A stretch of 38,417 nucleotides of DNA, from the NCBI GenBank assembly GCA_016206155.1, contig JACQSC010000005.1, forward strand, positions 1 through 38,417, given 5' to 3'. The position numbers were made by a program, and so were the translations under genes. The stretch's first letter is position 1. Every line of letters starts with the position of its first letter. Shown one piece after another: positions 28 to 34,802 of this stretch. The notes beneath the pieces are model-generated. The model was not told the DNA's origin. It worked only from the letters and a program-made list of their open reading frames with translations, and did no database searches. This stretch comes from Candidatus Uhrbacteria bacterium. Lineage in GTDB: Bacteria; Patescibacteriota; Patescibacteriia; JACQRZ01.

Positions 28-687
28 ATGGGTCACAAAGTACATCCTCGAAGTTTTCGCACGGCAATTTTGTTTGGCTGGGACTCGAAATGGTTCGCAA
101 CCAATGCTGTCTTTCGCGGGAACTTAAAAAAAGATATCCAGATCAAAAAATTTCTGCGCACAGAGCTTGCGAAAGCTGCCGTGTCTAAGATAGAAATTGA
201 GCGTACGACTCATGTGGTAACGCTTACTATCCGCACAGCAAAGCCGGGCGTCGTGATCGGACGGCAAGGCGCTGGAATAGAAGAGATTAAGAACAAGTTG
301 CGAAAGAAATTTTTCGGTTCAGAGAAAGTGACGCTCCATCTCAACGTGATAGAGGTTGAGCGTCCGACACTTGACGCTCAACTCGTCATGCAGGGAATGA
401 TTGAAGAACTTGAAAAGCGCACTCCCTATCGTCGTGTTATGCGGGCTGCGCTCGAACGCGTGCAAAAAGCGGGCGCTCAAGGCGTTAAGGTACGCGTTGG
501 CGGCCGATTGAACGGGGCAGAAATCGCAAAAACAGAAAGTCTGATCGTTGGAAATGTTCCACTGCACACACTGCGCGCCAATATTGATTATGCCCGCGGC
601 GCCGCACGGACCCTTTCGGGGGCTATAGGTGTGAAGGTTTGGATTTATAAAGGGCTGCATTTCGGCGAACACACCGAACGATCATAA
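28..687 (+). CDS. rpsC: 30S ribosomal protein S3
   Basis: [14 protein letters not shown]...KH-domain pattern; first gene of r-protein cluster. Confidence 0.97.
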
Positions 688-21683: not shown

Positions 21684-21806
21684 ATGAATACAAATAAAAA
21701 AAGGGTCATTTTTCCTAAAGGGGAGCAGCACCAGTTCCTTGAAAAAGCGCAGGCGCTACTACGCTATTCGAGAACCGAGATATCAAAAATACGGAAGTAT
21801 TGGTGA
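21684..21806 (+). pseudogene. Short ORF resembling the N-terminal HTH part of the LAGLIDADG protein, out of frame with 21739-22503
   Basis: MNTNKKRVIFPKGEQHQFLEKAQALLRYSRTEISKIRKYW*; overlaps next ORF in another frame. Confidence 0.4.
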
Positions 21807-22503
21807 CGAAGAATATCGAAAGAAGAAATGGTTTGAGTGGTGGGATAAGAAGGGAAGATTTCAATTATCTCAAAATCAGCCCCGACCCATGCAGTGTCCG
21901 CCTCGCTCCGAAGAACTCGCAGAATTTGTTGGTATTATGCTTGGAGACGGCGGAATGACGTCATTTCAAATTTCTATCACTCTTGGCTATAAAAGCGATC
22001 GGGAATATAGTGTATTTGTTTCGGCGTTACTCAAAAGGCTTTTCCTTGTTGCACCTTCAATATATGAAGGTGATCAATCAATTATTGATATAAGGATATC
22101 TCGAAAGGTACTCGTGAATTTTTGTGTTTCTCTTGGTCTTTGTATTGGCAATAAGATTCGAAACAAGGTAGATATTCCGCACTGGATTAAACAAAATAAA
22201 ATCTTTTTAACGGCGTGCGTGAGGGGTATGATGGATACGGATGGATGTATTTTCCAAGAGTGCCATGCCATTGGTGAAAAAAAGTATTGCTATCCCAGAA
22301 TAGCTTTGGTAAGCTACTCAAATACCTTGCGGCTATCAGTTTTTGAAGGGCTGAAAAAGTTGGGTTTTAGTCCAAAAGAACGCAATGGTAGGAGTATCAA
22401 CCTCGAGAATAAAGGAGAGATACAAAAGTATTTTTCTTTGGTTGGTACGCATAATCCAAAGCATCAAAAGCGTTTTGAGGAATTCATCTGGAGAGGTGCG
22501 TGA
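21739..22503 (+). CDS. LAGLIDADG-type homing endonuclease-like protein (start uncertain)
   Basis: LAEFVGIMLGDGGM and ACVRGMMDTDGCIF motifs. Confidence 0.7.
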   Translation: MKKRRRYYAIREPRYQKYGSIGDEEYRKKKWFEWWDKKGRFQLSQNQPRPMQCPPRSEELAEFVGIMLGDGGMTSFQISITLGYKSDREYSVFVSALLKRLFLVAPSIYEGDQSIIDIRISRKVLVNFCVSLGLCIGNKIRNKVDIPHWIKQNKIFLTACVRGMMDTDGCIFQECHAIGEKKYCYPRIALVSYSNTLRLSVFEGLKKLGFSPKERNGRSINLENKGEIQKYFSLVGTHNPKHQKRFEEFIWRGA

Positions 22504-22576
22504 GCGGTTGAAACGACCACTCTTGAAAAGTGGCAGACCTGCAAGGGTCTCGAGGGTTCGAATCCCTCCCTCTCCG
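22490..22576 (+). tRNA. tRNA-Ser (anticodon TGA)
   Basis: GGAGAGG...CCACT CTTGAAA AGTGG...variable arm...GAGGGTTCGAATCCCTC CCTCTCC G. Confidence 0.93.
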
Positions 22577-22654
22577 AATTATTTATTACCACTATTCTAT
22601 GACGCAATCAACAATACACATCATCATAACCGGCGGCACTATTGATGCGGTTTG
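22574..22654 (+). repeat. 81-bp direct repeat copy 1
   Basis: Matches 26668-26748 apart from two substitutions. Confidence 0.9.
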
Positions 22655-22721
22655 TGGGGAATCGGTGTCAGGAATAGTTTTTGAGAATTCGATCCAATGT
22701 TCATTGCAAAACTATTCCTGA
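22599..22721 (+). pseudogene. Truncated 5' fragment of the asparaginase-like gene
   Basis: MTQSTIHIIITGGTIDAV, same N-terminus as the gene at 26693, then diverges into an IR element. Confidence 0.8.
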
Positions 22722-22725
22722 CACC
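22664..22725. repeat. Inverted-repeat (REP/RAYT-like) element
   Basis: GGTGTCAGGAATAGTTTT...AAAACTATTCCTGACACC, 18-bp perfect arms. Confidence 0.8.
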
Positions 22726-22859
22726 ATTTCGCACCATTTCGCCGGGGGAAACGGGGGGTCAGGAGCAGTTTTTCCAGTTTTTTCTTTTTCTTTCAAGGAA
22801 TTGACAGTTTAACAAAAAGAAGAAGCATATAAAAATCCTTTATTTGAAAGAAAAAGAAC

Positions 22860-22887
22860 TTGACAGGTTTTGCTTATTCAGTATAAT
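22860..22887 (+). promoter_or_regulatory. Sigma70-type promoter for the AAA ATPase gene
   Basis: TTGACA, 16 nt, TATAAT. Confidence 0.75.
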
Positions 22888-22919
22888 GAATAAGTAGGTA
22901 TACTTACTTATTCAATACA

Positions 22920-24359
22920 ATGATAAAGCCAAATACGGTAGCAGTTAATTATATCCAACAGCAAATGAGCAGAGGAAAAGCTCGTTTACTTCCGTATGTC
23001 TTTAAAGCGCCTTCTTTTGCCTACCCCAAAAGGCACCTTGTGTTCAGAATAGAAAAATACGTTAAAGATTTTTTGAAAGGTGAAAGGGACGTGCGCTGGG
23101 TTGTTATCCCTGGGTTGCGCGGTGTTGGCAAAACAACGGTTATGGCGCAAGTATTTGTTGGAGCGATAGAAACAAAGACATCGGCAACCGCACACTTTTT
23201 GTATCTTTCAGCTGATGATTTACTACCTCGTGGGTTGACCCTTACAGACGCACTCGATGCGTATGAATATATTCTCGGCACTCCGTTTGAAAAACTTGAT
23301 CAGCCAACGTTCATTTTTATTGACGAAGTGCAACAGAGCGCGGACTGGGCGCGCGTATTAAAATCGCTTTATGACCGCGCGCGGAACATCTTTATCGCAA
23401 GCACCGGATCATCGGCCGTTTCGCTCCAGTCCAATCCTGATGTTGCGCGTCGCGCGAAATTTGAAAAACTTTTCCCGTTAAGCTTCGGAGAATACGAGAT
23501 GATAAAGAATAACGTTTTCCCGCAGGCAGGCCTTAAGGATCAGATAAAGACGGCAGTGTATGGGGCACATACGGCGGACGAAGCATTTCAGAATCTTAAA
23601 AATCTTGAATCAAGCGTTGCACAACAATGGTCATGCTTTGAGCGCGCGGACATTGATGACTATCTTATGAACGGCACCTTGCCGTTCACTTTGAAGGACA
23701 TTGCCCCATCGGCGTATGATAGTTTGAACATCCTCATTGACCGCATCATTGATAAAGATATAAAAGATCTCGGACAATTCGATGCGCAAACCTTGAGTGC
23801 CGCAAAAAGATTGCTCTTTATCATGGCGGACAGCAATGAGCTGAATATCAATAAAACAAAAGATATTATTCAATTGAGCTACAACACAACACTCGCGGTT
23901 CTTGACGCATTTGAAAAGGCGGAACTCGTCACTCGTATTCCGGCAAAAGGATCGAGCGCCGCAAAAACAAAAAATCCCGCAAAATATTTTTTTATGAGTC
24001 CTGCTATTCGTGCGGCGCTTCTCGGAGTAAGCGGCATTCCGGAAACATTTTTAATGCGTAGAGGGAAGTTTTTTGAAGACATCGCCGTTCTGCATTTCTA
24101 TCGCGAATTCCTTTCAACGGGCATCGGCGCTTTGTCATTTGACGCCGCACAGGGCGGCGCGGATTTCATTTTTCAGATAGCGGATAAAAAGCAAATTGTG
24201 TGTGAAGTTGGGGTCGGGCGCAAAGGATACGACCAGGCAAAAAAAAGCATGGAGCGTTTTCGTGCGGATTTCGGACTGGTGATTTGCGATACGGACGTAA
24301 TGATTTCAAGGGAAGATAACGTAGTGAAGGTTCCCCTTGATTTTTTTCTATTGATGTAG
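22920..24359 (+). CDS. AAA_14-type ATPase (DUF4143-like)
   Basis: VIPGLRGVGKTTVMAQ Walker A; FIFIDEVQQSADWARVLKSLYDR; FEKLFPLSFGEYE. Confidence 0.85.
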   Translation: MIKPNTVAVNYIQQQMSRGKARLLPYVFKAPSFAYPKRHLVFRIEKYVKDFLKGERDVRWVVIPGLRGVGKTTVMAQVFVGAIETKTSATAHFLYLSADDLLPRGLTLTDALDAYEYILGTPFEKLDQPTFIFIDEVQQSADWARVLKSLYDRARNIFIASTGSSAVSLQSNPDVARRAKFEKLFPLSFGEYEMIKNNVFPQAGLKDQIKTAVYGAHTADEAFQNLKNLESSVAQQWSCFERADIDDYLMNGTLPFTLKDIAPSAYDSLNILIDRIIDKDIKDLGQFDAQTLSAAKRLLFIMADSNELNINKTKDIIQLSYNTTLAVLDAFEKAELVTRIPAKGSSAAKTKNPAKYFFMSPAIRAALLGVSGIPETFLMRRGKFFEDIAVLHFYREFLSTGIGALSFDAAQGGADFIFQIADKKQIVCEVGVGRKGYDQAKKSMERFRADFGLVICDTDVMISREDNVVKVPLDFFLLM

Positions 24360-24369
24360 AGAAAATTTT

Positions 24370-24537
24370 ATGAACGCGCTCAATCGGGTGAAAACAGTAT
24401 ATTCCTTTTGGGGGCGATGGCCCTTGTTGTATGGCGCGCAAGATTATATTACGTTCATGGGCAGGCCGGGGCGTATCAGGAGAAGGGCTGTCGAAAAGCT
24501 TCACATGGTAATGGGGTCAGGAGCCATTATTTTTTAA
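24370..24537 (+). pseudogene. N-terminal fragment, possibly a SAM methyltransferase, truncated by an IR element
   Basis: MNALNRVKTVYSFWGRWPLLYGAQDYITFMGRPGRIRRRAVEKLH then reads into the IR element. Confidence 0.4.
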
Positions 24538-24678
24538 GTTATGATATGCTATAATCATGCCGCGAACTATACGATCTGATATTGCCGACATGAGCTATTA
24601 AGCGTTTTAAGTTAGAATCACCTTTCGGTCTGTCGGGGAGGCCGTGGGATAAAAATAATGGCTCCTGACCCCATTACC
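24507..24678. mobile_element. 172-bp MITE-like element, probably an internally deleted RAYT (REP-associated Y1 transposase) element, copy 1
   Basis: 28-bp perfect TIR GGTAATGGGGTCAGGAGCCATTATTTTT; second copy at 27325. Confidence 0.8.
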
Positions 24679-24682
24679 ACAC

Positions 24683-24940
24683 TATGGTTTTTCAGAGGAG
24701 TACATTAAGGAACAAAAGACTGGCACGCTTGTCGAATACGCAAAAGAGCTTGGCGCATGTCTGGACGATGTGCTTGAACCGCTGTGGCAGGATTCATCGC
24801 GACGAGAGGATTTACTGAAGGACATCAAGCGACAAATCCAGCAGATGATTTTGCGTGACTATAAAGATCGGTTGGCAGTGAAGGATTTTTCAAAATATCT
24901 CAATCGTCTCGTTGATATTATTCTGAAAAAATGGATGTGA
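24683..24940 (+). pseudogene. C-terminal fragment, probably type I restriction HsdR subunit
   Basis: YGFSEEYIKEQKTGTLVEYAKELGACLDDVLEPLWQDSSRREDLLKDIKRQIQQMILRDY...; upstream part missing; next to YgjP. Confidence 0.5.
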
Positions 24941-24941
24941 T

Positions 24942-25496
24942 ATGAAAAAAGTGATCCGTACCCATGAGCGGATAATTCTCTATACGCTTCGGAAAAGCAA
25001 GCGCGCAAAACATGTGCGAATTTCCGTGAATTGCGATGGCGCCGTGCTGGTAACCCAACCGATGCGCGTTCCGTTTGATCGAATCGAAGGGATCGTCGCA
25101 AAGAAGCTCGGATGGATTATCGGTAAAATTGATTTTTTCAAGCAGTTTGTTTCGTCTCGAAAAAGATCGCTTGCGGAATATCAAAAATGCAAAAAAGACG
25201 CGCTCGATCTCGTGCAATCACGCATTGAGTATTTTAATAGTTTTTACGGATTCACTATTGGGCGAATAGCAATACGTAATCAACGTACGCGCTGGGGAAG
25301 CTGCTCGAAAAAAGGGAATTTGAATTTCAATTATCGTATTACCCAGCTTACACCAGGGCTTATTGACTATATTGTTGTCCATGAGTTGTGTCATTTGGCA
25401 GAGTTGAATCACTCGAAAAAGTTTTGGCGGCTTGTTGAACGAACAATGCCGAAGCACAACGAGTTGCGGCAATTACTGAAGCAGAATAGTTTGTAA
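24942..25496 (+). CDS. YgjP-like metal-dependent hydrolase (DUF45/SprT-like)
   Basis: RWGSCSKKGNLNFNYRITQLTPGLIDYIVVHELCHLAELNHSKKFW. Confidence 0.9.
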   Translation: MKKVIRTHERIILYTLRKSKRAKHVRISVNCDGAVLVTQPMRVPFDRIEGIVAKKLGWIIGKIDFFKQFVSSRKRSLAEYQKCKKDALDLVQSRIEYFNSFYGFTIGRIAIRNQRTRWGSCSKKGNLNFNYRITQLTPGLIDYIVVHELCHLAELNHSKKFWRLVERTMPKHNELRQLLKQNSL

Positions 25497-25566
25497 TGGC
25501 TTGATAGTTTTTCACTGCGAAGAAATTATTGGAGTATAATGAAAGCAAGAGAGGAATGCGAATAGT

Positions 25567-25878
25567 ATGATTGAGGTGAGCATATTTTTGTTTGGATTGT
25601 TGATCGGCGCACTAGTCGTTTATTTTGTGATGTCCCGTAAGACGACAACCGGAATCGCCGCGCACGCGAAGAACCAGCAAAATGAGAAGCAATCACGGAA
25701 AGACAAAATTCTTGAGATATTGCGAGAGCGCAACAGCCTAACTAACGATGATATTGAAAAAGTTCTTGGCGTGTCAGACGCATCCGCGACGAATTACCTT
25801 CAAGAGCTAGAACGTGAAGGAAAGATCGAACAGGTGGGCGAGCGTGGGCGGTTCGTATCGTATCGGCCTAAGAAATAA
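25567..25878 (+). CDS. Membrane-anchored winged-helix DNA-binding protein
   Basis: N-terminal TM then RKDKILEILRERNSLTNDDIEKVLGVSDASATNYLQELEREGKIEQVG. Confidence 0.65.
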   Translation: MIEVSIFLFGLLIGALVVYFVMSRKTTTGIAAHAKNQQNEKQSRKDKILEILRERNSLTNDDIEKVLGVSDASATNYLQELEREGKIEQVGERGRFVSYRPKK

Positions 25879-25900
25879 ACTCAGCCATAACTTGCACTTT

Positions 25901-26179
25901 ATGGATCAGTCACTTTTATACCCAGTCATTTTCGGCGCACTTGGCGGATTCGTTCGCGCGCTTGTTGGCATCGCGAAGTATTTTGAGAAGAATAAACGTG
26001 AGCAGAAACTACGGCTTCCATATGTTCTCTATTCCATTTTCGTTGCCGCTCTTGTCGGTGGCATCGCTGGCATTTTCGCGAATGGCGACTGGAAACTCGC
26101 TCTCATCGTAGGTTATGCAGGTTCCGATTTTCTCGAGGGACTCTACAAAATCAAGAAGGCCCAAGGGTTTGAAATATAA
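25901..26179 (+). CDS. Small hypothetical membrane protein
   Basis: MDQSLLYPVIFGALGGFVRALVGIAKYFEKNKREQKLRL...; two TM segments. Confidence 0.55.
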   Translation: MDQSLLYPVIFGALGGFVRALVGIAKYFEKNKREQKLRLPYVLYSIFVAALVGGIAGIFANGDWKLALIVGYAGSDFLEGLYKIKKAQGFEI

Positions 26180-26207
26180 AGAAAAGGGAGTAACATTACT
26201 TTATTCT

Positions 26208-26600
26208 CTTGCCCGCGCACGGGTGGGCGGGGAAAGGGCAAGATCAAACAATAAATTCCCCCAACGGCTAAACCGTCTTAGCCATTGAAATCAGCAATAG
26301 GCGAGAGACGGAAATGGCAAGAAAAAGGGGTGTGGGAAAAATGAATTGCCATTTCCGTCTCTCGCCTCCGTCTCGAAGGCACCCAAACGGAAGCGGCGGT
26401 TGGCGATCCTTTCGCCCCATTCATTAAGAGTGGGGAAGAAATGGTGGGGGCGAAAGGAGCGACAACAATAAAATTCCTAAAATTTTCCCATCCTATTGGG
26501 TTTCCGCCTGCGGCGGATTTGAATGGGGCGCGCGCAAAAGATTAAGAAAAAAATGAAGGGGAAAATTTTAGGGATTTTGTACTCCGCACCGCGGAGTCGC
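26208..26600. other. Non-coding region packed with inverted repeats
   Basis: Successive IRs at 26208-26242, 26262-26287, 26299-26367, 26404-26461, 26470-26577 and about 26581-26597. Confidence 0.6.
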
Positions 26601-26667
26601 CGCTGGGGAGTTAGGGTTCAAAATCGGGATTCTCCTCGAAAAAGCTTCGAACTTTGTTTGAGAAACA

Positions 26668-26748
26668 CCGAATTATTTATTACCCCTATTCTATGACGCA
26701 ATCAACGATACACATCATCATAACCGGCGGCACTATTGATGCGGTTTG
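26668..26748 (+). repeat. 81-bp direct repeat copy 2
   Basis: Matches 22574-22654. Confidence 0.9.
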
Positions 26749-27232
26749 GGATGGCAAAAAAGACACTGCCGTGATTGGCGAAGGACTTGCGACTGCATCC
26801 TCGCTTCCGGATTATTTTTCTCGCCTGATTCTGTATGCCGATGTTCAATTTACCGAGGTATACATGAAGGACAGCCGATCCCTGACGAGCACTGATATTG
26901 AACATATCGTGAAGGAGGTCGAGGACAGTTCCAGTACGCGCATTCTTATCACACACGGCACGTATACCATGCCTGATACCGCGAAGTATCTTAAAGCGCA
27001 TCTGAAGCGGCACGATCAGACGATTATTTTGACCGGTTCCATGGTGCCCCTGCGGGGATTTTCCGGCGAGTATTCCGATGCGGCGTTTAATCTTGGTTAT
27101 GCCATCGCGAAAGTAGAGGATCTCGGACCAGGCATCTATCTTGCGATGAACGGGCGCGTGTTTACGCCAGACGAGGTAGTAAAAAATTTAGCGGAAGGAA
27201 AATTTTATTCCGTCTTTGACCGCCACGCATAA
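26693..27232 (+). CDS. Asparaginase-like N-terminal-domain protein
   Basis: IIITGGTIDAVWDGKKD...LITHGTYTMPDTAKYL...IILTGSMVPLRGFSGEYSDAAFNLGYA. Confidence 0.82.
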   Translation: MTQSTIHIIITGGTIDAVWDGKKDTAVIGEGLATASSLPDYFSRLILYADVQFTEVYMKDSRSLTSTDIEHIVKEVEDSSSTRILITHGTYTMPDTAKYLKAHLKRHDQTIILTGSMVPLRGFSGEYSDAAFNLGYAIAKVEDLGPGIYLAMNGRVFTPDEVVKNLAEGKFYSVFDRHA

Positions 27233-27324
27233 TTTCCTCCATAGGGATTTCCTCATTCGCGACTGGCAAGCGAAAGTGAAAAAATAACTGTCCGCATGGT
27301 AATGGGGTCAGCATGGTAATGGGT

Positions 27325-27496
27325 GGTAATGGGGTCAGGAGCCATTATTTTTTAAGTTATGATATGCTATAATCATGCCGCGAACTATACGATCCGATAT
27401 TGCCGACATGAGCTATTAAGCGTTTTAAGTTAGAATCACCTTTCGGTCTGTCGGGGAGGCCGTGGGATAAAAATAATTGATCCTGACCCCATTACC
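27325..27496. mobile_element. MITE/RAYT-derived element copy 2
   Basis: Near-identical to 24507-24678; right TIR degenerate (AATTGATCC for AATGGCTCC). Confidence 0.8.
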
Positions 27497-27539
27497 ACCA
27501 AGTCGAAACCGCCAATGACTTTACCGCACTCAAACACAT

Positions 27540-28100
27540 ATGAAAAAAATACCGGATAATCAATTGCCCTCCCGCCAATCGCAAATAGTTATCTATAAAG
27601 ACCCACGCGGTAGTGTGAAGATTGATGTGCGTTTTGACGGCGATACGGTGTGGCTCACGCAGGACGCTCTTTCTGAACTGTTTGAAAAAGGTCGATCTAC
27701 TATTACGGAACATATTCAAAATATCTTTACCGAGGGCGAGCTTACCGCCGATTCAGTATGTCGGGAATTCCGACGTACTGGGACAGATGGAAAGGAATAT
27801 CTTGTAAAATATTACAATTTGGAGCTTATCATAGCTGTTGGGTATCGAGTAAAATCACCGCAAGGCATGGCTTTTCGTACGTGGGCGACGGCACGACTTT
27901 CAGAGTATATCGTGAAGGGCTTTGTGATAGACAGCGATAGGCTCAAAAACCCCGATGCCCCGTTTGATTATTTTGAAGAACTCGAGCGCACTATCGCGGA
28001 TATTCGTTCCAGCGAAAAAAGGTTTTATCGAAAAATTACGGATATCTATGCAACGAGTGTGGACTATGACCCGAAAAGCTATCGAGAGTGCACAAGTTAG
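27540..28100 (+). pseudogene. RhuM-family protein, C-terminally truncated
   Basis: IDVRFDGDTVWLTQDALSELFEKGRSTITEHIQNIF...ITDIYATSVDYDPK then abrupt end. Confidence 0.75.
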
Positions 28101-28177
28101 AAAAAATAAAAAGAAATAACTGTCCGAGGTCCGACCTTTGGCGAAGATTTGAAATTTTTGTTCAACATGTTAACGGT

Positions 28178-29065
28178 ATGAAAATTGTATTGGTCATTAC
28201 AAATTTTCGAGGAAAAAAAACAGCTTTTATTTCACAGGAACTTCGCACGTATCCGCTCGAGCAGGCAGTAACGTTGGCGCGTGAAGGAAAAATTGAAGAC
28301 GCCCATGTTGTTCATCGCGGTACAACGTCATATATCCGCACTAATACCAACGTACCCAAAGACGATGAGTTTGATACAATTTCCATTACGGCGCGCAATC
28401 TTTTATTATATGCCCAAGGGCATGGAACGAAAGCGCTTCCACTGCTTGATGCTTTTGTTACGCTTTATCGAGCTCGTTTGAAGAAAAAAGGACGGCTGAT
28501 AACGCCGGTTGGGCAACCAAGTGTGCTTTTGTCAGGTGTTTTAATAGACCTTCGAGAAGTTAAGCGCTTTGTTTTTAATGCTGCCAGGCGATTTGACATT
28601 GATCCCTATCTCCTCGGAGCGATTTTGATAGACGAGATTGCGCGTCTGAAACCGTTTGAGGAAATCATTGATGCCCTTGGCGTTCATGTCGTAGGCCGCA
28701 ATGTGTCTGTTGGCATTGGACAGGTAGAGATAGATACCGCCAATAACATCATAAAAATTGGACTGTATCATCCAAATCCAAACGATCAACAATTGCCTTT
28801 TCGTCGGCTCGATCGGGAATCGCGGACGCATCTGTACGGATATCTTATTGATTCGAAACATAATATCTTTTTCGCTGCGGCAGTGATCAAAGACATTATC
28901 GTCTCTTGGACGCCCGCCGCCGGAGATAAAATGACCTCCGCAGTTATCGCCACGCTCTATTCAAAAGGTGGAATGCCGCATCCCAACCCCGCCTCAAACA
29001 AGAGGGGAGACCAGATAGCTGGTGAGTTTTATGATCTTGCGAGAAGTATCATAAAAAATTCATGA
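28178..29065 (+). CDS. DUF3892-like N-domain plus lysozyme/transglycosylase-like domain, hypothetical
   Basis: TSYIRTNTNVPKDDEFDTISITARNLL; PYLLGAILIDEIARLKP...NVSVGIGQVEIDTANNIIK. Confidence 0.5.
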   Translation: MKIVLVITNFRGKKTAFISQELRTYPLEQAVTLAREGKIEDAHVVHRGTTSYIRTNTNVPKDDEFDTISITARNLLLYAQGHGTKALPLLDAFVTLYRARLKKKGRLITPVGQPSVLLSGVLIDLREVKRFVFNAARRFDIDPYLLGAILIDEIARLKPFEEIIDALGVHVVGRNVSVGIGQVEIDTANNIIKIGLYHPNPNDQQLPFRRLDRESRTHLYGYLIDSKHNIFFAAAVIKDIIVSWTPAAGDKMTSAVIATLYSKGGMPHPNPASNKRGDQIAGEFYDLARSIIKNS

Positions 29066-32155: not shown

Positions 32156-32719
32156 ATGCAAAAGCTGTATTGCTACGTCGACGAGTCAGGGCAGGATGAT
32201 CGATCTCAATATTTTACCGTTGTTGTCATCATCTGTTTTGGTGATCGGGATATTATCCGTCAGCAGCTTATTGATATCGAGCATATTACAAAGACATATG
32301 GTTTAAAGTGGCACAAAACAAAGCATGATCGTCGAATGCACTATCTTGCGGTGGCATGCAAAAGCGATGTCGGAGCAGTAACAACTTATTACGGCATCCA
32401 TAAAAAACCACTTCCTTATTTCTTCCCAATGAGCGATACTTTGGAGAGAGCAATAAAAAAAGCATGTACGGGGAAGTACTCGGCAACTGTTTATGTCGAT
32501 GGAATTGATAGAACAATAGCAAAGAAACTTACAAATATATTACGCTCACGAGGCGTTCAACTCAACTTGGTAAAAAGCAGAAGAGATGAAAGTGAGCCGA
32601 TTATTCGCCTTGCAGATATGTGGGCGGGCTGCATTCGAGGGATGCTTCTTGGCGGAAAAGAGAGTAAAGCTATTTTTGAACACGCAAAGGCAAAAGGTCA
32701 CCTGACGGATGTTAACTGA
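32156..32719 (+). CDS. DUF3800 domain protein (copy 1)
   Basis: MQKLYCYVDESGQDDRSQYF...YVDGID...RRDESEPIIRLADMWAGCIRG. Confidence 0.85.
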   Translation: MQKLYCYVDESGQDDRSQYFTVVVIICFGDRDIIRQQLIDIEHITKTYGLKWHKTKHDRRMHYLAVACKSDVGAVTTYYGIHKKPLPYFFPMSDTLERAIKKACTGKYSATVYVDGIDRTIAKKLTNILRSRGVQLNLVKSRRDESEPIIRLADMWAGCIRGMLLGGKESKAIFEHAKAKGHLTDVN

Positions 32720-32725
32720 GATCAT

Positions 32726-32751
32726 AAAAACCTCGTTGAAACGAGGTTTTT
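32726..32751. terminator. Bidirectional terminator between DUF3800-1 and the convergent ncRNA
   Basis: AAAAACCTCGTTGAAACGAGGTTTTT. Confidence 0.85.
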
Positions 32752-32828
32752 ATGAAGTTCCTTGGCTAGTTTCTCTCATGTGAGAAACAATTCCCTGCCA
32801 TACGGCCAGACCTTCGCCAAGGCTTGAT
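32726..32828 (-). ncRNA. Putative structured RNA convergent with DUF3800-1
   Basis: Minus-strand promoter TTGACA-17-CATAAT; CCTTGG/CCAAGG closing stem with two internal hairpins; ends in the terminator; same layout at 34502-34603. Confidence 0.7.
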
Positions 32829-32834
32829 AACCGT

Positions 32835-32863
32835 ATTATGGCATGTTATGGTACACTTGTCAA
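32835..32863 (-). promoter_or_regulatory. Promoter of the putative ncRNA 1
   Basis: Minus strand TTGACA (32858-32863), 17 nt, CATAAT (32835-32840). Confidence 0.7.
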
Positions 32864-32874
32864 TATCAGTAGAA

Positions 32875-32991
32875 CCGTAAAACAGACTGGCTGCCTAGGG
32901 CCCGATTCTCACCCCCAAAAATTTTGGGGGAGTAGCCTCACGCTTTGGTGAGGCGGGCACACTAGGTCCTTACACTCCAATCTGTTTACTT
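32875..32991 (-). ncRNA. Third putative structured RNA
   Basis: CAGATTGG/CCAGTCTG closing stem (U-G pair only on minus strand), CCTAG/CTAGG, GCCCG/CGGGC, two hairpins; minus-strand TTGACA-16-TATGCT upstream. Confidence 0.6.
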
Positions 32992-33034
32992 AATCTTAGC
33001 ATAGCATGGATAAACCAATTGTCAAGGTGAAGAA

Positions 33035-33958
33035 ATGATACACGTATTTCTTGCCATTGCACCACTGTTCCTCATTATCTTCGCAACCGCTGCGCTGCAG
33101 CGGTGGAAGCATATCGACAAGCATTGGTCGGAGGTGCTCAACGAATTCGCGCTCAAGATTGGTCTGCCGGTGCTGATTTTTTCCGCGCTTGCAAAATCGC
33201 CATTCGCGCTTGCCGATCATGCCGGTGTCATTTTTGTCAACTCGCTGTTCTGCGTGATTCTTTTTTTCTGCACCCTTGCTTTGTGCAGAATGTTCCGCTT
33301 GAGTGCGGAGATGACGCGTACGATTATTGCCGGTCTCATGTTTGGCAACATTGCGTATCTTGGCATTCCTATCCTGACGCAGATTTATGACGCATCAATT
33401 CTTCCGAGGGTCAGCGTTATTATCGCGACATGGTTTTTCTGGTTTTTTACGCTTGTCACCGGGTATGTTACGATGTCGCGCCAAAGAAAAGGAGATGGTG
33501 TGTTCGCGCGAACATGTCAAGCGCTTCTGGGAAATCCACTCCTGATTGCCGTTGCGCTTGGACTCTTGTTTGCGAGTTTTTCTCTTTCACTGCCATCGGT
33601 TGTCGTAACAGCGCTTGATATGGTTTCCGCGTCAGTCACGCCAACGGTCCTCATTGTCATCGGGCTTTTCATTGGAAAGTCTCCGCTGGGTTCATTCAAT
33701 GACTGGATCCCCGCATTTGCGCTTTCCGCACTGACCCTTCTGGCCCTGCCCGCCGGAATGTATTTCGGACTTCAGCTCTTTGGACTCTCGCCGCATACCT
33801 ACGCAATCTCAATTATTGAGATTGCGATGCCCTTTGCGATTACCCCATTTGCCCTTGCCGACGAGTATGGATTGAATAAAGCATGGATCTCCCGTTCCAT
33901 TGTCCTTTCCACAATTCTTTCGGTGCTCACACTCCCGTTCTGGATTTCGATTCTATAA
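33035..33958 (+). CDS. AEC (auxin efflux carrier) family transporter
   Basis: Multi-TM; LNEFALKIGLPVLIFSALAKS...GNIAYLGIPIL. Confidence 0.85.
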   Translation: MIHVFLAIAPLFLIIFATAALQRWKHIDKHWSEVLNEFALKIGLPVLIFSALAKSPFALADHAGVIFVNSLFCVILFFCTLALCRMFRLSAEMTRTIIAGLMFGNIAYLGIPILTQIYDASILPRVSVIIATWFFWFFTLVTGYVTMSRQRKGDGVFARTCQALLGNPLLIAVALGLLFASFSLSLPSVVVTALDMVSASVTPTVLIVIGLFIGKSPLGSFNDWIPAFALSALTLLALPAGMYFGLQLFGLSPHTYAISIIEIAMPFAITPFALADEYGLNKAWISRSIVLSTILSVLTLPFWISIL

Positions 33959-33963
33959 GTGAT

Positions 33964-34503
33964 ATGCAGAAATTGTATTGTTATGTCGATGAATCAGGAC
34001 AAGACCCATCGTCACGGTTTTTTGTTGTCGCGGTAATAGTTTCTGCCAGTGATCAGCAAATGATTCGGGAAGAATTGGAACAGCTAGAGCGAGTGTCTGG
34101 AACGGGGCATAAAAAATGGCACAAGGTACGACAGAAAAATAGAATTGCTTTCCTGGAGCGTGCATTGGGTGAAGGAATCGCACATGGTTTAGTGTATGTC
34201 GCTTGGTATAGGAAACCGGCATTATATTTTTTTACAATGCTCGACGCGATCGAAAAAGCAATTCGCACATCAGTACAAGCTGACTATCAGGCACGTATTT
34301 ATGTGGATGGTATCGATCAACAAAAGGCGCTTGAACTGACAAGCGCACTTCGTATCCGAGGAATATCTCTTCGATTGATTCAAGGTAGTCGAGACGAGAG
34401 CGAACCACTGATTCGTTTGGCGCTCCTCGAAAATAAGGAGTCATCTCGACTCCTTGATAATGCCAGGAAGAAGGATTATCTTAGAGTGATTTTTGAATCA
34501 TAA
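33964..34503 (+). CDS. DUF3800 domain protein (copy 2), missing the ADMWAG segment
   Basis: MQKLYCYVDESGQDPSSRFFVVAVIVSASDQQMIREELEQLE...SRDESEPLIRLALLENKES. Confidence 0.8.
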   Translation: MQKLYCYVDESGQDPSSRFFVVAVIVSASDQQMIREELEQLERVSGTGHKKWHKVRQKNRIAFLERALGEGIAHGLVYVAWYRKPALYFFTMLDAIEKAIRTSVQADYQARIYVDGIDQQKALELTSALRIRGISLRLIQGSRDESEPLIRLALLENKESSRLLDNARKKDYLRVIFES

Positions 34504-34603
34504 AACCCCGCTAAAACGGGGTTTTATGATATACCTTGGCTATTCTTCGTTGCCGAAGACCAATCTCTGCCAAAAAAGGGCAGGCCTTCACCAAGGATTG
34601 ATA
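34502..34603 (-). ncRNA. Putative structured RNA convergent with DUF3800-2
   Basis: Minus-strand promoter TTGACA-17-CAATAT (34609-34637); CCTTGG/CCAAGG three-way structure; terminator AAAACCCCG/CGGGGTTTT. Confidence 0.7.
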
Positions 34604-34658
34604 TAATCATATTGGCACGCTACAATTATTCTGTCAATAGCATGACCGTGGCCTTTTT

Positions 34659-34802
34659 ATGAAAACCTGCGGGCAGTGCAAACTGGAATTTCAGATTTTT
34701 GACGAGGATCGGGAATTCTACAAAAAGATCAACGTGCCGGAGCAGATATGGTGTCCGGAGTGCCGCACTATGCACCGCTGTTACGAACAAACGATCAGCT
34801 GA
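34659..34802 (+). pseudogene. Short zinc-ribbon ORF, probably a truncated gene
   Basis: MKTCGQCKLEFQIFDEDREFYKKINVPEQIWCPECRTMHRCYEQTIS*. Confidence 0.45.

Follow-up and report, generated by a model that had tools for sequence, protein, structure and literature searches.

The window, i.e. the whole stretch of 38,417 nucleotides that was analysed (contig C2 of a genome of 0.91 Mb), carries two like units in which the gene for a DUF3800 protein is convergent with a structured RNA of the minus strand, about 105 nt long and with a promoter of its own. The combination of DUF3800 and a structured RNA is already known as a kind; the RNAs found here constitute a DUF3800-associated class, R1, that is unlisted in Rfam 15, set apart against Rfam models alone. 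As judged from covariation, the three-way-junction structure of the R1 RNA is under selection, and phylogenetic comparison shows the RNA class and the protein clade to be matched. The reading that we favour, tentatively and at somewhat less than even confidence, is that each unit would be a two-gene RNA-protein module in which a nuclease is restrained by its own RNA.

Layout of the units

DUF3800 protein A (187 aa) is encoded at 32156..32719 and DUF3800 protein B (179 aa) at 33964..34503, both on the plus strand, and both match Pfam PF12686 above its gathering cut-off of 21 bits (A 38.1 bits, E 3.1e-9; B 34.7 bits, E 3.6e-8). The A-stem-T terminators that the initial annotation had assigned to the two genes are there as palindromes and represent bidirectional intrinsic terminators, one common to gene A and RNA 1 (32723..32754, CATAAAAACCTCG-TTGAAA-CGAGGTTTTTATG) and the other to gene B and RNA 2 (34499..34528, CATAAAACCCCGCTAAAACGGGGTTTTATG). 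On the minus strand, the R1-class core of RNA 1, a three-way junction of P1, P2 and P3, occupies 32758..32823 (68.8 bits with the R1 model in cmsearch) within an estimated transcript from about 32828 to 32721, and that of RNA 2 occupies 34532..34597 (82.8 bits, the top score of all) within an estimated transcript from about 34602 to 34498. The opposite-strand promoters are likewise present as described; they are of the sigma-70 type and read TTGACA(32863-32858)-17-CATAAT(32840-32835) for RNA 1 (32835..32863) and TTGACA(34637-34632)-17-CAATAT(34614-34609) for RNA 2 (34609..34637). Promoter-like sites are in keeping with transcription of the RNA strand in general: among 104 PF12686-type loci, being those whose flanks were long enough (mostly of the 384-genome class sample, with 7 named ones added), 49 sigma-70-like sites with at least 11 of 12 consensus positions were found antisense to the gene versus 4 on the sense strand.

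The convergent layout and the common terminator would also fit an RNA that chiefly controls DUF3800 expression in cis, either through convergent transcription or by pairing with the 3' end of the mRNA. However, the body of the RNA lies beyond the common terminator, so that the overlap with the mRNA amounts to the terminator hairpin only, interference needs neither a covarying three-way junction nor conserved junction bases, and RNA copies without a gene exist. We hold control in cis to be the most improbable of the explanations considered.

The two units had been described as a duplicated module. They are indeed alike, but the term is a loose one: A shares just 44% identity with B and is nearer to, and groups with, proteins of other species, on which grounds a recent tandem duplication was rejected. 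The gene between the units encodes a membrane transporter (33035..33958, plus strand, Pfam Mem_trans E 8.7e-29) and is context, outside the unit; the neighbours of the two units are housekeeping genes (tmk, the transporter), with no obvious defence island. The nearest DUF3800-bearing relative of the host family in this sample is a Candidatus Uhrbacteria MAG (L011/G006).

Two further elements had been missed. The minus strand carries, upstream of RNA 1, a near-threshold DUF3800-III RNA (32884..32983), which matches RF02962 over its full length at 42.6 bits (gathering 43.8; E 5.1e-8) and has a promoter TTGACA-16-TATGCT (32998..33025, minus strand). It has no DUF3800 gene of its own, and no DUF3800 remnant was found at 32700-34000 besides the known gene ends. 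The other element is a third unit outside the window (G000:C5:89375), where the third DUF3800 gene has the same layout as A and B, the promoter reads TTGACA-16-TATGAT, and the RNA scores 36.2 bits against Rfam DUF3800-II (gathering 43.2; E 2.2e-5).

Other parts of the window deserve a brief description. At 34660-34798 a truncated gene copy (MKTC..., weak zf_Tbcl match) adjoins the RNA; in the relative G006 (L006/L011) this gene extends further, at the same position beside the RNA. The region 21739-28100 looks horizontally acquired: a sub-threshold LAGLIDADG_3 ORF precedes a tRNA-Ser, and behind the latter come genes for an AAA_14/DUF4143 ATPase and a YgjP metallopeptidase and one of the RhuM family. 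An ORF at 28088-29065 has a sub-threshold match to the catalytic domain of the Tse3 peptidoglycan muramidase (E 6.5e-5).

Structure of the R1 RNAs and other DUF3800-linked classes

The closing stem and the variable hairpin pair as the initial annotation had it: the former is CCTTGGC/GCCAAGG in copy 1 and CCTTGGT/GCCAAGG (one G-U) in copy 2, the latter GTTTCTC/GAGAAAC and TCTTCG/CGAAGA, respectively. The second hairpin, given as CTGCC/GGCAG, is exact in copy 2 and reads CTGGCC/GGCAG with one bulged G in copy 1. Both copies form the three-way junction when folded from near the start site. Their fold z-scores are -7.8 and -5.2, with none of 200 shuffles as good, where the terminators were included and the fold of -7.8 also took in promoter bases upstream of the transcript.

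A covariance model was built from ten related RNAs and then extended to 21 sequences; in all, 20 further R1 RNAs came to light in other genomes. Across the 21 RNAs 94.7% of the pair cells are standard and both sides have changed in 13 of the 18 pairs; the closing stem, for instance, occurs as CCTTGG/CCAAGG, TCTTGG/CCAAGA, GTTTGG/CCAAAC, CCTCGG/CCGAGG and CTTCAG/CTGAAG. The number of double-change cells in this alignment, which was fitted to the model, is 89 versus 26.1 ± 5.4 after shuffling, which does not correct for shared ancestry, and versus at most 26 in slid controls, which retain that ancestry and are likewise far lower. On an unfitted MAFFT alignment the R1 structure still gives 25 such cells versus 7.6. 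The earlier proposal that the sequence changes keep the pairing, and that the structure is selected, thus agrees well with the larger set.

The unpaired junctions of R1 (GAAGG, GAGA..TGG and TAG) are near-invariant, the variable part being the paired hairpin, and the class has a conserved sequence of its own (GAAGGCCTGCC..GGCAGAGATTGG..ATAG). With the aligned junctions conserved, no variable unpaired segment usable as a guide was found in the R1 RNAs, and an RNA-guided nuclease was rejected for want of such a segment on a constant scaffold.

In Rfam, the DUF3800-linked RNAs figure as curated sRNAs; its families DUF3800-II, -III, -V and -IX reportedly originate from the work of Weinberg et al. 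2017. The comparison with these motifs that the initial annotation had called for gave no home to the two RNAs: cmscan of the region returned no DUF3800-family match for RNA 1 and RNA 2 even at E<=5, which rules out an Rfam DUF3800 class, and none of the 4227 Rfam families matches them. The R1 relatives likewise lack an Rfam DUF3800-family match (cmscan, E<=0.01 or 0.05). Since other loci of the lineage do match DUF3800-II, -III, -V and -IX, the search works for such sequence. Weak sub-gathering matches of the terminators to istR, RNAI and rimP were rejected as identities. In their position as antisense sRNAs downstream of a DUF3800 gene the window RNAs resemble DUF3800-II (RF02961), -III (RF02962), -V (RF02964) and -IX (RF02968), and with II and III they also share the closing stem and two hairpins; each of the Rfam classes has its own DUF3800 clade, and II and III, both with scores below gathering, are present in this genome. 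What sets the window RNAs apart is that they match none of these families and carry their own conserved sequence.

Another unlisted class, group 2 (model R2, AGCCGAAnAC...ATAGGCT), goes with a neighbouring set of proteins and occurs at L017, L018, L020, L027-L029, L040, L041, L153, L178, L180, L182, L183, L206 and L212. Here 82.8% of the cells are paired and 23 double-change cells were counted versus 8.0 after shuffling, the third helix being poorly aligned; model R2 matches neither the R1 RNAs nor the window. No Rfam RNA match was obtained for the DUF3800 loci L052, L061, L064, L079, L082, L086, L097, L098, L100, L102 and L104, most of which have a strong antisense promoter-like site, and these probably carry further unlisted RNA classes.

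Clusters in which a single DUF3800 gene has two to four RNAs of DUF3800 type around it, belonging to one class or two, occur at L212 (G463:C14), L180 (G515:C29) and L153 (G580:C44), and at L147, L152 and L153 an R1-type RNA is directly followed by a group-2-like unit, as if in one fused transcript. In L147, three clustered tRNA genes precede the R1-type RNA by 8 nt. At L148, roughly 1 kb separates a LOOT RNA (RF03000, 50.7 bits; 324-466, minus strand) from an R1 RNA that lacks a gene.

The DUF3800 proteins and their match to RNA class

The AlphaFold2 model of A, made from 11 sequences, has a pLDDT of 88.7 and a pTM of 0.85. In a Foldseek search of the PDB all seven matches under E 0.001 were RNase HII or RNase H2 (top match E 1.9e-5, probability 1.00), with TM values of just 0.50-0.59 and an identity to RNase HII and RNase H3 of 11-16%; a sequence search of the PDB gave no match, and an NCBIfam search gave nothing. 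The type 2 and 3 RNases H have an adjacent D-E in strand 1 and two further acids, as in D78-E79-D180-E206 of Ta-RNase H3 (PMC4132731). A carries an intact set of the same kind, D9-E10-D115-D154, where the residues were matched by motif, order and secondary structure rather than by superposition of coordinates, and these acids are conserved among 100 relatives (99%, 99%, 88% and 99%, respectively). A is therefore predicted to have an RNase HII/H3 fold with a four-carboxylate metal site, and probably works as a metal-dependent nuclease whose target is RNA or RNA/DNA. The RNase H fold of DUF3800 has been reported before, with a remark on catalytic rearrangement (PMC10910872), and hence is not new in itself.

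In B, a clean deletion of 10 residues (DMWAGCIRGM in A) takes out D154, which is present in 97 of 98 aligned relatives and whose loss had escaped the initial annotation. Going by its sequence, B is probably catalytically inactive, yet RNA 2 beside it is intact and has the best R1 score. The sole PADLOC match of B is marginal (DUF3800_VII, E 0.002). As for a phage origin, viral contigs contained neither the R1 RNA pattern (in its strict form) nor a protein relative.

An RNase HII-like fold next to a structured RNA, in housekeeping gene surroundings, could also mean that the RNA is a substrate or decoy, processed or sensed by DUF3800, and that the role of the pair lies in regulating RNA metabolism of the host, not in defence. 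The spread of the family is patchy, however: PF12686 matches occur in 71 of the 384 genomes of the class and matches to the A2 profile in 14 of 384, where a housekeeping role would be less patchy. This explanation appears improbable to us.

The match between RNA and protein emerged from a tree of 64 proteins, on which the 8 RNA label groups need 8 changes (minimum 7) versus 42.0 after shuffling, with ten rows labelled 'na', no class being assigned, and with the label of L143 set by hand (a locus whose group-2-type gene has a divergent R1 RNA). A branch with an SH-aLRT of 99 sets off the R1-type proteins on one side, and all 14 rows of the R1 clade have an R1 RNA. The search for loci of the lineage that lack the RNA, another suggestion of the initial annotation, ended with an RNA at every readable locus checked in the superclade of R1, group 2 and DUF3800-II. 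The proposed unit of a protein and its cognate RNA is thus well supported, considering that RNA class maps to protein clade and that the pairing covaries.

These same observations, i.e. the strict match of class and clade, the conserved unpaired junctions and the presence of the RNA at every readable locus, would equally suit an RNA that is an obligate cofactor, such that the nuclease is a ribonucleoprotein which needs its RNA for folding, substrate choice or activation. In fact, DUF3800 occurs with Cas12a2 (V-A2) and VI-F CRISPR loci in the form of TPR-DUF3800, which like the present units has an RNase H fold beside an RNA-based system and for which a role in interference or crRNA handling has been suggested (PMC10910872, PMC12669027). 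The window proteins, in contrast, are small and stand-alone and have no TPR domain, and the flanks read showed no association with CRISPR. Against a cofactor stand the absence of a guide-like variable single-stranded region and the persistence of gene-less RNAs with promoter, terminator and stems, in one case in a genome without any DUF3800. We consider an obligate cofactor the main competitor of the favoured reading, though less likely than it.

RNAs without genes and the proposed restraint

For 8 of the 22 R1 RNAs an intact cognate gene is missing (G036, G661 twice, G580 twice, G614:C89, G545 and G463:C14). The genome of G036 is 100% complete and has no DUF3800 anywhere; one of the two gene-less RNAs of G580 adjoins a group-2 unit, and in G545 a remnant of 49 residues is left. 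Gene-less copies are also found in the genus g439 (Doudnabacteria), and in several genomes the gene-less R1 RNAs keep promoter, terminator and paired stems. Frameshifted or truncated genes stand beside intact RNAs at L016/L142 and, for group 2, at L040 and L041. A match in G062 (33 bits) was treated as false, having no clear promoter of its own and no DUF3800. Some of the frameshifted or truncated genes may be assembly errors, and target size partly explains the asymmetry, a gene of 560 bp breaking more often than an RNA of 100 nt; as both act in the same direction, we take the asymmetry as supportive only.

The gene-less copies in G036 and g439, the multiple RNAs around one gene and the RNA behind the tRNA cluster could be read as signs that the RNAs function independently of DUF3800 and that the association with the gene reflects a hitch-hiking cassette. 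That RNA class fits protein clade over 64 proteins argues against this, as does the fact that at least one gene-less copy adjoins a DUF3800 remnant (L207, tblastn 4e-12), and we think hitch-hiking very improbable.

Restraint of the nuclease is favoured because no intact gene lacked the RNA at the readable loci checked, whereas the RNA outlives the gene, because a single gene may have several RNAs around it, and because AbiF and RCd22 of Clostridioides difficile (abiF motif, RF03085) are a precedent for such a system. Direct binding of RCd22 has been shown to neutralise the toxin AbiF, whether the RNA acts in cis or in trans (PMC12373285). As in the window, a protein with a nuclease fold has a structured cognate RNA, some 100 nt long, and RCd22 too has its own (sigma-A) promoter and a terminator. 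The differences are that AbiF is a HEPN protein, whereas an RNase HII-like fold is predicted here, and that RCd22 is found on the strand of its toxin gene, upstream of it and with read-through, whereas the R1 RNA is downstream, convergent and driven by its own promoter. By analogy with RCd22 and AbiF, the abundant RNA would bind its cognate DUF3800 protein directly and hold back the nuclease as long as the cell is uninfected; the enzyme would become free once the RNA is lost or, upon invasion or stress, displaced. The spare copies, namely the DUF3800-III RNA, RNA 2 beside the probably inactive B and the gene-less RNAs elsewhere, could then be the residue expected of an antidote that acts in trans. 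The proposed logic of an RNA antidote binding a nuclease is also that of the type III toxin-antitoxin systems (ToxIN, CptIN, TenpIN). However, their antitoxin RNAs are upstream of and co-directional with the toxin gene, whereas R1 is a single unit without tandem repeats, on the opposite strand, and goes with an unrelated protein fold.

Some observations count against restraint: the retention of RNA 2 beside the probably inactive B is not specifically accounted for, and the convergent layout of the RNA, the housekeeping neighbourhood and the marginal PADLOC match of B fit it less well. A toxin-antitoxin-like or anti-invader role, as the initial annotation had suggested, would have indirect evidence in the predicted nuclease fold, the loss asymmetry and the AbiF/RCd22 analogue.

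A limited literature search found no tested function of DUF3800-linked RNAs. To these RNAs the present analysis adds the covarying unlisted class R1 and a second class, group 2; it finds the class of the RNA to go with protein phylogeny, links the protein by prediction with the active site of RNase HII/H3, and reveals the loss asymmetry. It is conceivable, though on balance doubtful, that DUF3800 as a whole is a large RNase HII-derived nuclease family, each member gated by a small non-guide RNA, which would make up a defence or addiction system widespread within and outside Patescibacteria, with the gene-less RNAs providing immunity in trans. More specifically, the question whether a DUF3800 nuclease is switched off, or on, by its own RNA has become directly testable.
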